Assembly: GCF_004368405.1 (NCBI RefSeq)
Contig: NZ_SBJH01000008.1
Span: 124,001-188,000, forward strand
DNA from: Olivibacter sp. XZL3
GTDB lineage: Bacteria > Bacteroidota > Bacteroidia > Sphingobacteriales > Sphingobacteriaceae
Direction: 5' to 3'
Length of the DNA stretch: 64,000 nucleotides
Within the stretch, counting starts at the first letter, position 1. The number at the start of each line of letters is the position of its first letter. The translations under genes were made by a program, and so were the position numbers. The notes beneath the pieces are model-generated. The model was not told the DNA's origin, ran no database searches, and saw nothing but the letters and a program-made list of their open reading frames with translations. Of the stretch, positions 19,280 through 22,488 are shown piece after piece.

Positions 19280-19540
19280 TGTAAAGAATAGTTAGTAGTA
19301 AACATAAGGCATAAATATAGGCTAGGAATATTGATACCTGACACCAAAAACAGAACCAAGACAGGAAGTCTTGATACCTGATACTTAATACCACTTTGAG
19401 TGGATGATATTTGATAGTAGATAATAAGACATAAGACATTAGGACAAGAAGTCTTGATGTCTGACACCAAAAACAGAGCAGTCTAAAGCCAACTATTCAC
19501 TATTAACAGCTTCGCTAATTCACTACCTTATCCTTTTGCT
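19280..19540. repeat. Non-coding region of imperfect word-like repeats
   Basis: Sequence built from recurring short words: CTTGATACCTGA, ATAAGACATAAGACATTAGG, and a 16-nt direct repeat TGACACCAAAAACAGA present twice (near 19339 and 19462), each time after AGTCTTGAT or TTGATACC. It has no coding frame of interest and is unrelated to the riboswitch downstream. Similar word-like filler appears in other gaps of this window (10.0, 17.2, 32.8, 48.4, 61.4 and 63.1 kb). Confidence 0.6.
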
Positions 19541-19556: not shown

Positions 19557-19586
19557 TTTGCGCAATAAAAATAAAGTGTATATTTG
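19557..19586 (+). promoter_or_regulatory. Promoter of the methionine operon
   Basis: TTTG (19557-19560), 18 nt, TATATTTG (19579-19586): a full match to both Bacteroidota promoter boxes. Transcription would start about 19589, some 45 nt before the SAM riboswitch. This is the best promoter in the window. Confidence 0.75.
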
Positions 19587-19634: not shown

Positions 19635-19747
19635 TTGATTTATAAAGAAGTGGCGAGAGACCGGCTCTAAGACCCACTGGCAACCATCCGAAGCGATTGG
19701 AAAAGGTGCCAAATCCTGTCCCAAATAAATGGGAGCATATAAATTGA
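19635..19747 (+). ncRNA. SAM-I (S-box) riboswitch
   Basis: S-adenosylmethionine-binding leader that turns down methionine genes when SAM is plentiful. Conserved core pieces seen in order: GGCGAGAGACCGGC, the AAGACCCACTGGCAACC segment, and AAAGGTGCCAAATCCTG. P1 is a 10-bp helix between TTGATTTATA (19635-19644) and TATAAATTGA (19738-19747) with two G-U pairs; a small P4 is CCC-AAATAAAT-GGG. No T-tailed terminator hairpin lies right after P1. Instead an ORF starts 7 nt downstream, so control may act on translation start or through later attenuation. Confidence 0.9.
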
Positions 19748-19754
19748 ATAAGAC

Positions 19755-19889
19755 ATGAAATCACATTCAACTAGTAGCACAGTCAAGTCTGGTATAGCGT
19801 TTAGCCAGCAGGCATTCAATCAAATCTCTGTCAGCAAAGGGCAATCGCCGACCTATATGTATTGCTCTGGGATGCGTATGTGCTGTTAG
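19755..19889 (+). CDS. 44-codon ORF ending in Cys/Met residues, putative leader peptide
   Basis: ATG at 19755, TAG at 19887-19889. The peptide begins MKSHSTSSTV and ends MYCSGMRMCC, so 6 of its last 10 residues are Cys or Met. It begins 7 nt after the SAM-I P1 helix and lies in front of methionine genes. Cysteine-rich leader peptides controlling sulfur genes by ribosome stalling are known in actinobacteria, and this ORF has the same logic: low charged Cys-tRNA would stall ribosomes at the end. Downstream ATATACA/TGTATAT (19920-19942) forms a 7-bp hairpin that could be part of a switch. Translation is not proven; the ORF could be chance. Confidence 0.55.
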   Translation: MKSHSTSSTVKSGIAFSQQAFNQISVSKGQSPTYMYCSGMRMCC

Positions 19890-19998
19890 AAAGAAATCTC
19901 TTTTTTTCTTAATGCTAATATATACAACCTTCTGATGTATATTCTTTCATACGTTTAGGCTCATAAATAAGTGGTTAATACATTATAAGAAATATCGA

Positions 19999-20193
19999 AT
20001 GTCAACAAAAAATCTAAAATTTCACGCCTTAAAAGCGCCTTCGGCCGCAACCCATCAACAGCTTTTGAAGGAAGAGCAGTTGGCCGCAGGTGTGACGCCT
20101 ATAAGTCTGCGTATAGCAGTAGGTATAGGACATATAGACGATATAATTGCCGATTTACAACAAGCTTTCGATATAAGATCAAGTAGAAATTAA
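19999..20193 (+). pseudogene. metY: Internally deleted O-acetylhomoserine sulfhydrylase (metY start plus tail)
   Basis: A 64-codon frame that joins the first residues of MetY (MSTKNLKF, as many full-length MetY proteins begin) to about its last 55 residues ([18 protein letters not shown], then [14 protein letters not shown]). Normal MetY is about 430 aa; roughly 360 residues are gone, including the PLP-binding lysine, so it cannot be a PLP enzyme. The join is in frame. Differences from the usual tail ([10 protein letters not shown] where RLSVGIEHIDD is expected) suggest decay. It sits in the normal metY position, 23 nt before metX and behind the SAM riboswitch. A recent small protein with a new role is possible but less likely. 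Confidence 0.8.
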
Positions 20194-20216: not shown

Positions 20217-21275
20217 ATGAGTATCCATAAATTCAACTATAATAAAACCTTTCGGTTTGAAAACGGAAAACGATTAAAAGGTCTACAAATAGCCTACCAT
20301 ACCTACGGACGTCTGAATACCCGAAAAGATAATGTGGTATGGGTTTGTCATGCATTGACGGCTAACTCCGACGTATTTGACTGGTGGCCTGGGTTATTTG
20401 GCGAAAAGGATTTGTTCAATCCACAAGAACATTTTATTATTTGCGCCAATATTATAGGATCACATTATGGCAGCACCAGTCCCTTAAGCATTGATCCGAG
20501 CACGGATCAGCCTTACTACCTTTCTTTTCCGCAGTTCTCTATCCGCGACCTCGTTGCTGCTCATGAGCTGTTAGCACAAGAATTGGGCATCGGTAAGATT
20601 AAAGTGCTGATTGGTGGCTCGCTAGGCGGGCAACAGGCTATGGAGTGGGCTATTAGCCATCCCGATCGAATTGAAAGTCTCATTCTGCTGGCTACCAATG
20701 CGCAACACTCCCCTTGGGGAATTGCCTTCAATGAGAGTCAGCGCCTAGCCATTAGTGCGGATCGTACTTTCTTCGCGAACAAAGCCGACGGCGGTGCTAA
20801 GGGTTTAAAGGTAGCCCGCAGCATTGCGCTACTCTCTTACAGAACTTATGAGACCTATGGTGCCACTCAACTAGAAAATTCGGACGAAAAAGTCGATGAT
20901 TATCGTGCTTCTTCCTACCAAAACTACCAAGGCGAGAAATTGGTCAAACGGTTTAACGCTTATAGTTATTGGTTTTTGAGCAAAGCGATGGATGCCCACA
21001 ATGTCGGCAGAGGAAGGAATGGTGCGCAACAAGCGTTGCAAACGATACGAGCGAAAACCTTGGTGATAGGTGTTAGCAGCGACTTGCTGTTTCCCTTAGA
21101 CGAGCAACAGTTTTTGGCCAAACATATTCGGAACGCGAAATTCGCAGCTATCAATTCTTTTTATGGACACGACGGCTTTCTTATCGAGACAAAGCAGATC
21201 AGCAAGGAAATAGCTGCTTTTTTGAAAGAAAATCATTCCAATAGACTGAATGAGATATTACAACCACATAGTTAA
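20217..21275 (+). CDS. metX: Homoserine O-acetyltransferase
   Basis: Activates homoserine with an acyl group from acyl-CoA for methionine synthesis. 352 aa, alpha/beta-hydrolase fold, cytoplasmic. Seen: TYGRLNTRKDNVVWVCHALTANSD, the nucleophile elbow GGSLGGQQAMEW (Ser about residue 141), RTYETYGATQ, SYQNYQGEKLVKRFNAYSYW and the C-terminal YGHDGFLIE with the catalytic His. Acetyl versus succinyl specificity cannot be decided from family membership alone, but a metY remnant alongside suggests acetyl. The gene lies 23 nt after the metY remnant and 31 nt before hom, under the SAM riboswitch. Confidence 0.93.
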   Translation: MSIHKFNYNKTFRFENGKRLKGLQIAYHTYGRLNTRKDNVVWVCHALTANSDVFDWWPGLFGEKDLFNPQEHFIICANIIGSHYGSTSPLSIDPSTDQPYYLSFPQFSIRDLVAAHELLAQELGIGKIKVLIGGSLGGQQAMEWAISHPDRIESLILLATNAQHSPWGIAFNESQRLAISADRTFFANKADGGAKGLKVARSIALLSYRTYETYGATQLENSDEKVDDYRASSYQNYQGEKLVKRFNAYSYWFLSKAMDAHNVGRGRNGAQQALQTIRAKTLVIGVSSDLLFPLDEQQFLAKHIRNAKFAAINSFYGHDGFLIETKQISKEIAAFLKENHSNRLNEILQPHS

Positions 21276-21306: not shown

Positions 21307-22488
21307 ATGAGTAAAAAGCTTACACTAGGATTGTTTGGCTTTGGTGTAGTAGGCCAAGGCTTGTACGATATCATTAAAACCAAAAAGCTAAACCTGGAAA
21401 TTAAACGTTTCGCCATCAAAAATCCAGAGAAGAAGAGAACGCTGCCTTTGGATTTATTCACGACAAAGGCAGATGATCTATTAGAGGATACGGAAATTAA
21501 CACCATCGTAGAGTTGATCGACGATGCCGAGGCGGCTTTTGATATTGTCTCCAAAGCTTTAAAGAATGGTAAAAATGTGGTTTCCGCCAATAAAAAAATG
21601 ATCGCTACGCATTTGGAGGAACTTGTGGACATTCAACAGCAATATGGCACGAGTCTCTTATACGAAGGCGCTGTATGCGGTAGTATTCCTATTATCCGCA
21701 ATTTGGAAGAATACTATGATAATGAACTTTTACATTCTGTGTCGGGGATTTTCAACGGATCATCGAATTACATCTTATCCAAAATTTTTAACGAACACAT
21801 GGATTATGATACCGCTTTGAAACAAGCCCAGCTTTTAGGTTTCGCAGAAACGGATCCAACACTAGATGTAGGCGGCTTTGATGCGAAGTTTAAATTGGCT
21901 ATCGTGGCTTCACATGCATATGGATTATACGTTAAGCCGGAAGAGATTCTCAATATCGGTATCGATCAGTTATCAGACTACGATATTCGTTTTGCCAGGG
22001 AAAAGAATTACAAAATCAAGTTGGTGCCAACGGCTCGCGAAATTGGTAATGAAAAGGTCATCCTTTACGTCATACCAAAGTTTGTAAACGAAAAGAGCAT
22101 CCTTTATTCGGTGGAGAACGAGTACAACGGGGTGGTGGTTCAAGCGGCTTTTGCCGATCAGCAATTTTTCTATGGCAAAGGGGCGGGAGGACATCCAACG
22201 GGATCTGCGGTCCTTTCCGATATCGCTGCCTTAAGGTATGACTATCGTTACGAGTATAAAAAGCACTTGGAAGCAACCCAACTAAGCCATAGCAACAACC
22301 ATAAGATTACGGTCTACTTACGTTATAATGACGAGACCATTTTGGAAAAACTGAACTTTATCAAAGTATCCGAAAGACATTATGCCCGCGAGTTTAAATA
22401 CATCATCGGTGAAATCAATCTTGAGTCGTTGATTGCTAATAAAGCTTTGTTGGCGCAGGATAAGAGTTTTGTGGTGGAGATGCCATAA
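21307..22488 (+). CDS. hom: Homoserine dehydrogenase
   Basis: Reduces aspartate semialdehyde to homoserine, the branch point to methionine and threonine. 393 aa. The Rossmann fold starts LTLGLFGFGVVGQGLYDII, with the NAD(P)-site segment KNGKNVVSANKKMIA; catalytic-domain segments are YEGAVCGSIPIIRNL, GIFNGSSNYILSKI and AETDPTLDVGGFDAKFKLAI; GKGAGGHPTGSAVLSDI closes the core. There is no fused aspartokinase domain, so it is a stand-alone enzyme. Last gene of the SAM-regulated operon; a long stem-loop lies just after its stop. Confidence 0.94.
   Translation: MSKKLTLGLFGFGVVGQGLYDIIKTKKLNLEIKRFAIKNPEKKRTLPLDLFTTKADDLLEDTEINTIVELIDDAEAAFDIVSKALKNGKNVVSANKKMIATHLEELVDIQQQYGTSLLYEGAVCGSIPIIRNLEEYYDNELLHSVSGIFNGSSNYILSKIFNEHMDYDTALKQAQLLGFAETDPTLDVGGFDAKFKLAIVASHAYGLYVKPEEILNIGIDQLSDYDIRFAREKNYKIKLVPTAREIGNEKVILYVIPKFVNEKSILYSVENEYNGVVVQAAFADQQFFYGKGAGGHPTGSAVLSDIAALRYDYRYEYKKHLEATQLSHSNNHKITVYLRYNDETILEKLNFIKVSERHYAREFKYIIGEINLESLIANKALLAQDKSFVVEMP

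Follow-up and report, generated by a model that had tools for sequence, protein, structure and literature searches.

SAM-I riboswitches in other bacteria usually control intrinsic terminators. At mgtA of Escherichia coli, one leader contains both an RNA sensor and a leader peptide whose regulatory codons specify proline; the inputs there are Mg2+ and proline, whereas those of the leader described here would be SAM and Cys/Met, and the anatomy differs. In mycobacteria, leaderless poly-cysteine uORFs reportedly form a cysteine-responsive attenuator of operon expression, as the title of Canestrari 2020 has it. The uORFC-8-2 motif, found upstream of cysS in the Rhodobacterales, places Cys codons in its first hairpin, and ribosome-mediated attenuation has been proposed for it (PMC8632094). 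Aptamers that control the translation of a uORF are described from Mycobacterium tuberculosis, namely the B12 switch of ppe2 (PMC11260477) and the Mbox of pe20, the latter with the involvement of Rho (PMC12810186). Three further reports are related: a SAM-II riboswitch affects translation from a distance (PMC9373788), F. psychrophilum has leader-peptide attenuation ahead of amino-acid operons (PMC9723704), and sORFs resembling leaders are described from B. thetaiotaomicron (PMC7366714). A search of open PMC full text (without bioRxiv and with few subscription papers) found no description of a SAM riboswitch combined with a Cys/Met leader ORF. The parts of such an arrangement are of known kinds; their stacking, geometry and spread appear to be new.

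The window, that is, the whole stretch of 64,000 nucleotides from Olivibacter sp. XZL3 that was analysed, carries this arrangement. The aptamer fully matches the SAM-I (S-box) family model, RF00162, and it departs from the usual SAM-I in that its P1 helix is A/U-only and that the start of the leader ORF, and not a terminator in front of the gene, appears to serve as its expression platform. Like the mycobacterial ORFs named in the title of Canestrari 2020, this ORF is short and poly-Cys; unlike them it is predicted to have a 5' UTR, has a riboswitch in front, combines Cys with Met and belongs to another phylum. It shares with uORFC-8-2 the Cys codons inside a first hairpin, but that motif ends in a U run (an intrinsic terminator), a feature mostly absent here, and the account of it cited above mentions no riboswitch (PMC8632094). 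The likeness to ppe2 and pe20 would lie in an aptamer that governs the translation of a uORF: in 87 of 104 leaders the ATG falls 8-11 nt past P1, where the aptamer may occlude the uORF start. In the accounts cited, the ppe2 and pe20 uORFs are not described as sensors of an amino acid of the same pathway, and ligands and phylum are different (PMC11260477, PMC12810186).

The leader of the window and the genes behind it

All features of the locus lie on the + strand. A Bacteroidota-type promoter was predicted from sequence at 19558..19586 (TTG at 19558-19560, 18 nt, TATATTTG at 19579-19586), using what we take to be the consensus of this promoter type. The motif TAnnTTTG is present within 120 nt 5' of P1 in 86 of 103 relatives, its end lying 45-54 nt before P1 in 76 of these 86, and the promoter TTG is found at the expected spacing in 41/103. 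A second sequence, TTGATCAA, was considered as a conserved element 5' of the riboswitch and dropped, being present in just 7/103. Further upstream of the promoter, at 19320-19490, a degenerate direct repeat (CTTGAT..CTGACACCAAAAACAGA) was seen by eye. Since the predicted promoter ends approximately 170 nt 5' of the leader ATG and the predicted 5' UTR is approximately 160 nt long, the leader ORF is predicted not to be leaderless.

The SAM-I riboswitch claimed in the first-pass annotation was recovered at 19637..19745, scoring 80.1 bits with RF00162, whose gathering score is 44.4, and the aptamer is predicted to bind SAM. Its A/U-only P1 helix (GATTTATA at 19637-19644 with TATAAAT at 19738-19744) is near-invariant in a 37-sequence alignment (A2). 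The 44-codon ORF that had been reported downstream is present in the ORF list at 19755..19889, starting with ATG and ending MYCSGMRMCC before a TAG stop; its distance from the riboswitch, given earlier as 7 nt, is 9 nt when measured from the end of the Rfam match to the ATG. No Pfam or NCBIfam match was obtained for its product. The last ten codons (M Y C S G M R M C C; 19857..19886), six of which specify Cys or Met as first noted, are presumed to be sensor codons from the Cys/Met enrichment in the tails of relatives.

RNAfold places a 10-bp hairpin on the tail codons at 19854..19880 (19854-19863 with 19871-19880), an analogue of helix 1 of the Pedobacter group described below. The region after the leader stop (19888..19942) contains a 9-bp A/U-rich hairpin (19888-19896/19901-19909, RNAfold), which begins within the stop codon. 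The 7-bp hairpin first noticed behind the ORF is also present (19920-19926 with 19936-19942), as a reading by eye that is absent from the RNAfold prediction. Screening of 12 loci at Rfam gathering thresholds gave nothing beyond SAM.

The first-pass annotation placed a metY remnant and then methionine genes after the leader, and both descriptions stand. The remnant (64 codons, 19999..20193) begins 109 nt after the leader ORF and carries an internal in-frame deletion with its junction near 20035. Its C-terminal part matches PF01053 (E 2e-10) and, far under the cut-off of that full-length model, TIGR01326 (E 1e-13). At the same position Olivibacter jilunii L143 has a 434-aa metY, relative to which the window has lost a net of about 1119 nt in frame; this relative has the same riboswitch and a leader ending CSCMYMCCC, and its metX is 90% identical to that of the window. 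There follow metX, coding for homoserine O-acetyltransferase (20217..21275; TIGR01392, E 4e-104, score below the curated cut-off), and a homoserine dehydrogenase gene (21307..22488; PF00742, E 1e-50). The genome of the window was searched and no full-length metY was found elsewhere in it. Homocysteine may instead come from an O-succinylhomoserine-sulfhydrylase-like enzyme, whose best NCBIfam score falls slightly short of the cut-off and whose gene adjoins that of uroporphyrinogen-III C-methyltransferase (siroheme), and/or from a cystathionine-gamma-synthase-like enzyme scoring above its model cut-off. Another genome of the genus (G015), which has no metY, retains the riboswitch, a short ORF ending MCMCMQ (by eye) and then metX; the leader thus outlives metY.

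Conservation in the family and across the class

The first-pass annotation had proposed that relatives be compared for the ORF, its Cys end and its distance to P1, and all three proved to be widely kept in the window's family (f1). Among 151 genomes of the family, 119 contain metY (E <= 1e-60), and all 119 upstream regions were read after a duplicate, L033, had been dropped. With SAM-I called at a DNA-profile score over 30, 110 loci have the riboswitch and a leader, one (L136) has SAM-I directly at metY, and eight are below the score. The ATG lies 2-20 nt past P1 in 110/110 leaders with a riboswitch and room for a leader, and the last 12 residues include at least two Cys in 96 and at least three in 84 (103 leaders counted by computer and seven by eye).

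Shuffling, composition, folding and pN/pS were analysed on the first 103 leaders, or 104 with that of the window. Dinucleotide shuffles predict an ATG at +2 to +20 in 30.9 leaders, against 103/103 seen, and an ORF of at least 20 codons in 9.5, against 102/103. A start at +2 to +20 together with at least two Cys in the last 12 residues was found in 91/103, the shuffle mean being 1.08 and the maximum 5 in 200 shuffles; for at least three Cys the figures are 79/103 and 0.11. These shuffles, together with the coding constraint described below, rule out a chance ORF. The leader ranges from 19 to 49 aa, and its body sequence, its length and the order of its tail residues are unconserved; the gap to metY has a median of 114.5 nt.

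The tail is set apart by composition. In 104 leaders, Cys makes up 32.6% of the last 12 residues and 1.5% of the body (21x), and Met 14.7% and 0.7% (20x), which gives the clustered regulatory codons near the ORF end that characterize an amino-acid leader-peptide attenuator. Both Cys codons are used in the tails (TGT 236, TGC 171), so the Cys run is kept as amino acid and not as a DNA repeat. In 19 hand-picked pairs of close relatives, pN/pS is 0.54 for the whole ORF and 0.38 for the tail, the exceptions being the pair L107/L113, which has no synonymous change, and three others with values above 1. Indels occur in multiples of three in 8/10 cases inside the ORF and in 4/28 past its stop (Fisher p 0.0004). 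Both results suggest that the leader ORF is coding.

The Cys tail is complete, or complete but for one leader, in 11 of the 12 genera of f1, and among 80 metX loci of named genomes, a set that overlaps the f1 set, 79 have the riboswitch (L195 begins 428 nt before the match); a Cys tail is present in 79/79, with at least three Cys in 69. Seven of the eight metY loci below the SAM-I score served as a control, L382 being left out. In the 600 nt upstream, four of the seven have no ATG ORF with at least two Cys in its last 12 residues, and L039, L042 and L071 have short ORFs with two or few scattered Cys and no run of three.

The exceptional genus is g16, which we take to be a Sphingobacterium-like genus. 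In 12 of its 18 leaders the final 12 residues include at most one Cys, and nine of these 12 leaders end RMR (L078, L101, L110, L114, L116, L118, L120, L138 and L379, each with RMR directly before the stop). In the RMR leaders examined a GUCGUC...GACGAC stem begins at the stop codon and covaries by eye, for example GUCAUUC/GAAUGAC in L114; the 5' arm was taken from alignment A4 and the 3' arm by eye. This tail may be an arrest motif in place of Cys sensing. Two further loci have a gene where the leader would be. In L136 (G019) there is no leader, and the metY ATG itself lies at +11 after P1, while in L312 (family f63) the metX ATG lies at +12 and another ATG, at +5, opens a 12-codon ORF. In both, the gene ATG replaces the leader ATG, so that what stays constant is an ATG in this position.

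In the class Bacteroidia, 147 of 295 genomes had matches to R1, a model built for this type of riboswitch. The 80 loci outside f1 considered here are high-scoring R1 matches; lower-scoring ones were left out, as were a few others such as G342, G424 and G387, and likewise G296, G343 and G430. A Cys-tailed leader lies 0-20 nt past the aptamer in 22 of the 80, in 12 families, and with the window's own family the riboswitch-leader pair is thus present in at least 13 families. Its occurrence depends on the next gene: metY 13/18, metX 7/13, cysH 1/1 (ending in seven Cys) and OsmC-like 1/1, against 0/33 SAM-I loci before metH, 0/10 before other PLP sulfur enzymes and 0/4 before the remaining genes. 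Next genes were labelled from short motifs, and the metX figure, 6/9 by this means, was corrected to 7/13 on checking, when L315 (by eye), L320, L337 and L338 were added as metX-like; six of the 13 have no Cys-tailed leader. By P1 type, the leader accompanies 15/28 A/U-type, 6/51 GATRR-type and 1/1 left-over helices, and all six GATRR-type P1 with a leader end GATAAA or GATAAT.

Several single loci differ in detail. L320, L337 and L338 (family f54) have another P1 (ATGTTATAA...GATAACA) and a metX-like gene with no leader ORF at +0 to +20; L283, L284 and L285 (family f15) have a metY leader ORF at +10 that lacks the Cys tail; and in L305 (family f49) a Cys-rich 15-aa ORF (MRRAGMGCCCCCWLA) lies at +70 after the riboswitch, not at +10. 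In L372 (family f4), a locus with no SAM riboswitch, a stand-alone poly-Cys leader ORF (MTPIKQ...MMCCCCCCC) lies 87 nt upstream of a gene that looks cysH-like by eye. On contig C80 of L237 a second Cys-ended ORF (MKTNQQ...MRLIMCHSCCC) ends 98 nt upstream of position 1611, ahead of a gene that looks SusC/TonB-like by eye; it has no Rfam riboswitch on its strand and is divergent from the other SAM-I riboswitch of the genome, which precedes a metH-like gene. Genome-wide poly-Cys-stop patterns were discarded as a leader finder, as most of 60 loci had no in-frame ATG or an implausible ORF; the matches probably come from the opposite strand of other genes.

RNA structure around the tail and the search for a terminator

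Across 104 leaders, a fold stability in excess of shuffled sequences was seen between the tail and +75 (mean z -1.88), but neither in the ORF body (-0.12) nor in the last 60 nt before metY (-0.08). In 14 leaders of the Pedobacter group (alignment A3) three helices are conserved, of which helix 1 lies on the tail sensor codons, helix 2 is invariant and helix 3 shows compensation at three base pairs. None of 500 shuffles attains the covariation score, while the count of doubly changed pairs (three) is not above chance, being reached in 406/500.

Intrinsic terminators (a hairpin and U run) were sought and only a weak excess was found, with terminator-like sites in 18/104 leaders against 6.7 expected by shuffle. 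We therefore do not class the leader among the classical attenuators, although its mode of action may be similar. Sequestration of the metY start was also considered and is unsupported by folding, in which the accessibility of this start is the same at three ribosome positions (0.66/0.67/0.67), that is, with no switch. The C/G ratio is 1.58 in the leader body against 0.93 in metY, a weak hint of Rho loading, and pyrimidine-rich stretches were found past the leader stop in 44/104 leaders, against 19.2 expected from base shuffles. The leader starts have A at -3 in 65/104 and A at -6 in 74/104. Bacteroidetes are described as lacking Shine-Dalgarno sequences, with mRNA structure and A at -3 tuning initiation, and in F. 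johnsoniae start sites with A at -3 and little structure initiate better (PMC6847099).

A probable SAM-gated leader peptide and its alternatives

With moderate confidence, we read the leader as a two-input sulfur sensor, in which a SAM-gated leader ORF and its Cys/Met tail would control downstream expression. Comparative evidence points to the initial events: transcription would start about 45 nt before the SAM-I aptamer, and with SAM bound the A/U-only P1 would close and leave the leader ORF untranslated. As the 3' strand of P1 lies approximately 10-17 nt before the AUG, within the ribosome landing site, the SAM-bound helix would block initiation at the leader ORF. Tail composition and coding constraint suggest what may follow: at low SAM, P1 would open and the ORF be translated, and where Cys-tRNA or Met-tRNA is scarce the ribosome would stall at the Cys/Met codons of the tail. 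We infer that a stalled ribosome would prevent the tail hairpin and alter the fold of the next ~70 nt, allowing RNA polymerase to continue into metY/metX, and that the OFF fold would form when the leader is untranslated (high SAM) or the ribosome runs through (enough Cys/Met). With the response in this direction, expression of the genes would require both low SAM and a shortage of sulfur amino acids. Most leaders lack a typical U-tract terminator, which makes help from Rho probable in the OFF step, and Rho-assisted attenuation would be the final step. The model gains from the lack of such leaders before metH (0/33) and from the gene ATG in the leader's position in L136 and L312. It is weakened by the 12 g16 leaders with few Cys, by the three f15 metY leaders and the six metX loci without a Cys tail, by the unchanged accessibility of the metY start, by the rarity of terminator-like sites, by the low count of doubly changed pairs and the invariant helix 2 in the Pedobacter group, and by the four close pairs that have no synonymous change or a pN/pS above 1.

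It is unlikely, if plausible enough to be weighed, that the leader is gated in this way but that its translation alone suffices, through protection from Rho or RNase or through reinitiation at metY, the tail tuning the end of translation or arresting the chain. There is precedent in M. tuberculosis, where ppe2 is described as needing riboswitch-controlled uORF translation with termination-reinitiation (PMC11260477) and the pe20 Mbox as acting on a uORF start with Rho termination (PMC12810186). Most g16 tails, with RMR at the stop, a stem and few Cys, also resemble an arrest motif over a Cys counter. Such a reading, however, leaves unexplained why exactly Cys and Met are enriched 20-fold, why the leaders are found almost solely before sulfur genes and why poly-Cys ORFs recur before cysH; moreover, the median gap to metY is long for reinitiation.

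That the peptide is itself functional, for example as a small Cys/Met-rich metal- or redox-binding peptide made at low SAM, seems to us very improbable. Tails such as CMCCCC could bind soft metals, and the tail is under coding constraint, but body, length and tail order are unconserved among relatives, the ORF of the window matches no Pfam or NCBIfam family, and the Pedobacter tail codons sit in a conserved RNA helix. We give hardly any credence to SAM-I acting alone as an ordinary transcription switch with the ORF as a passenger. The usual control of intrinsic terminators by SAM-I and the terminator-like sites in 18 leaders would fit it, whereas the nearly fixed spacing of all 110 ORF starts, the coding constraint on the frame and the SAM-I-less metY genes, four of the seven without a Cys-ended ORF and the other three without a run of three Cys, argue against it.

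We therefore return to the SAM-gated leader ORF with a Cys/Met tail. The first-pass annotation proposed a SAM sensor and a Cys/Met sensor in series within one leader, and the conserved ORF, tail, spacing and coding constraint support the presence of both putative sensors; 'in series' can now be sharpened, in that the most likely target of the riboswitch is the translation of the leader ORF itself. For the class Bacteroidia as a whole, the probable picture, though held with no great assurance, is a SAM-I variant whose output is the start codon of a Cys/Met leader peptide, forming a two-input gate on sulfur assimilation, and in which lineages can swap the leader for a gene or re-tune the tail, from Cys runs to RMR.

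Riboswitches and leader-peptide attenuators are usually treated as alternatives, and here they are stacked with nearly fixed geometry on the same pathway. The pair offers a system for riboswitch action in bacteria whose initiation does without Shine-Dalgarno pairing and for attenuation without an obvious U-tract terminator, and it gives a large set of small ORFs an interpretation that can be tested directly. As the stacking is found in at least 13 families, it constitutes a natural system for how RNA combines two inputs. If the reading is true, the riboswitch would decide whether a second, translation-based sensor gets read at all.
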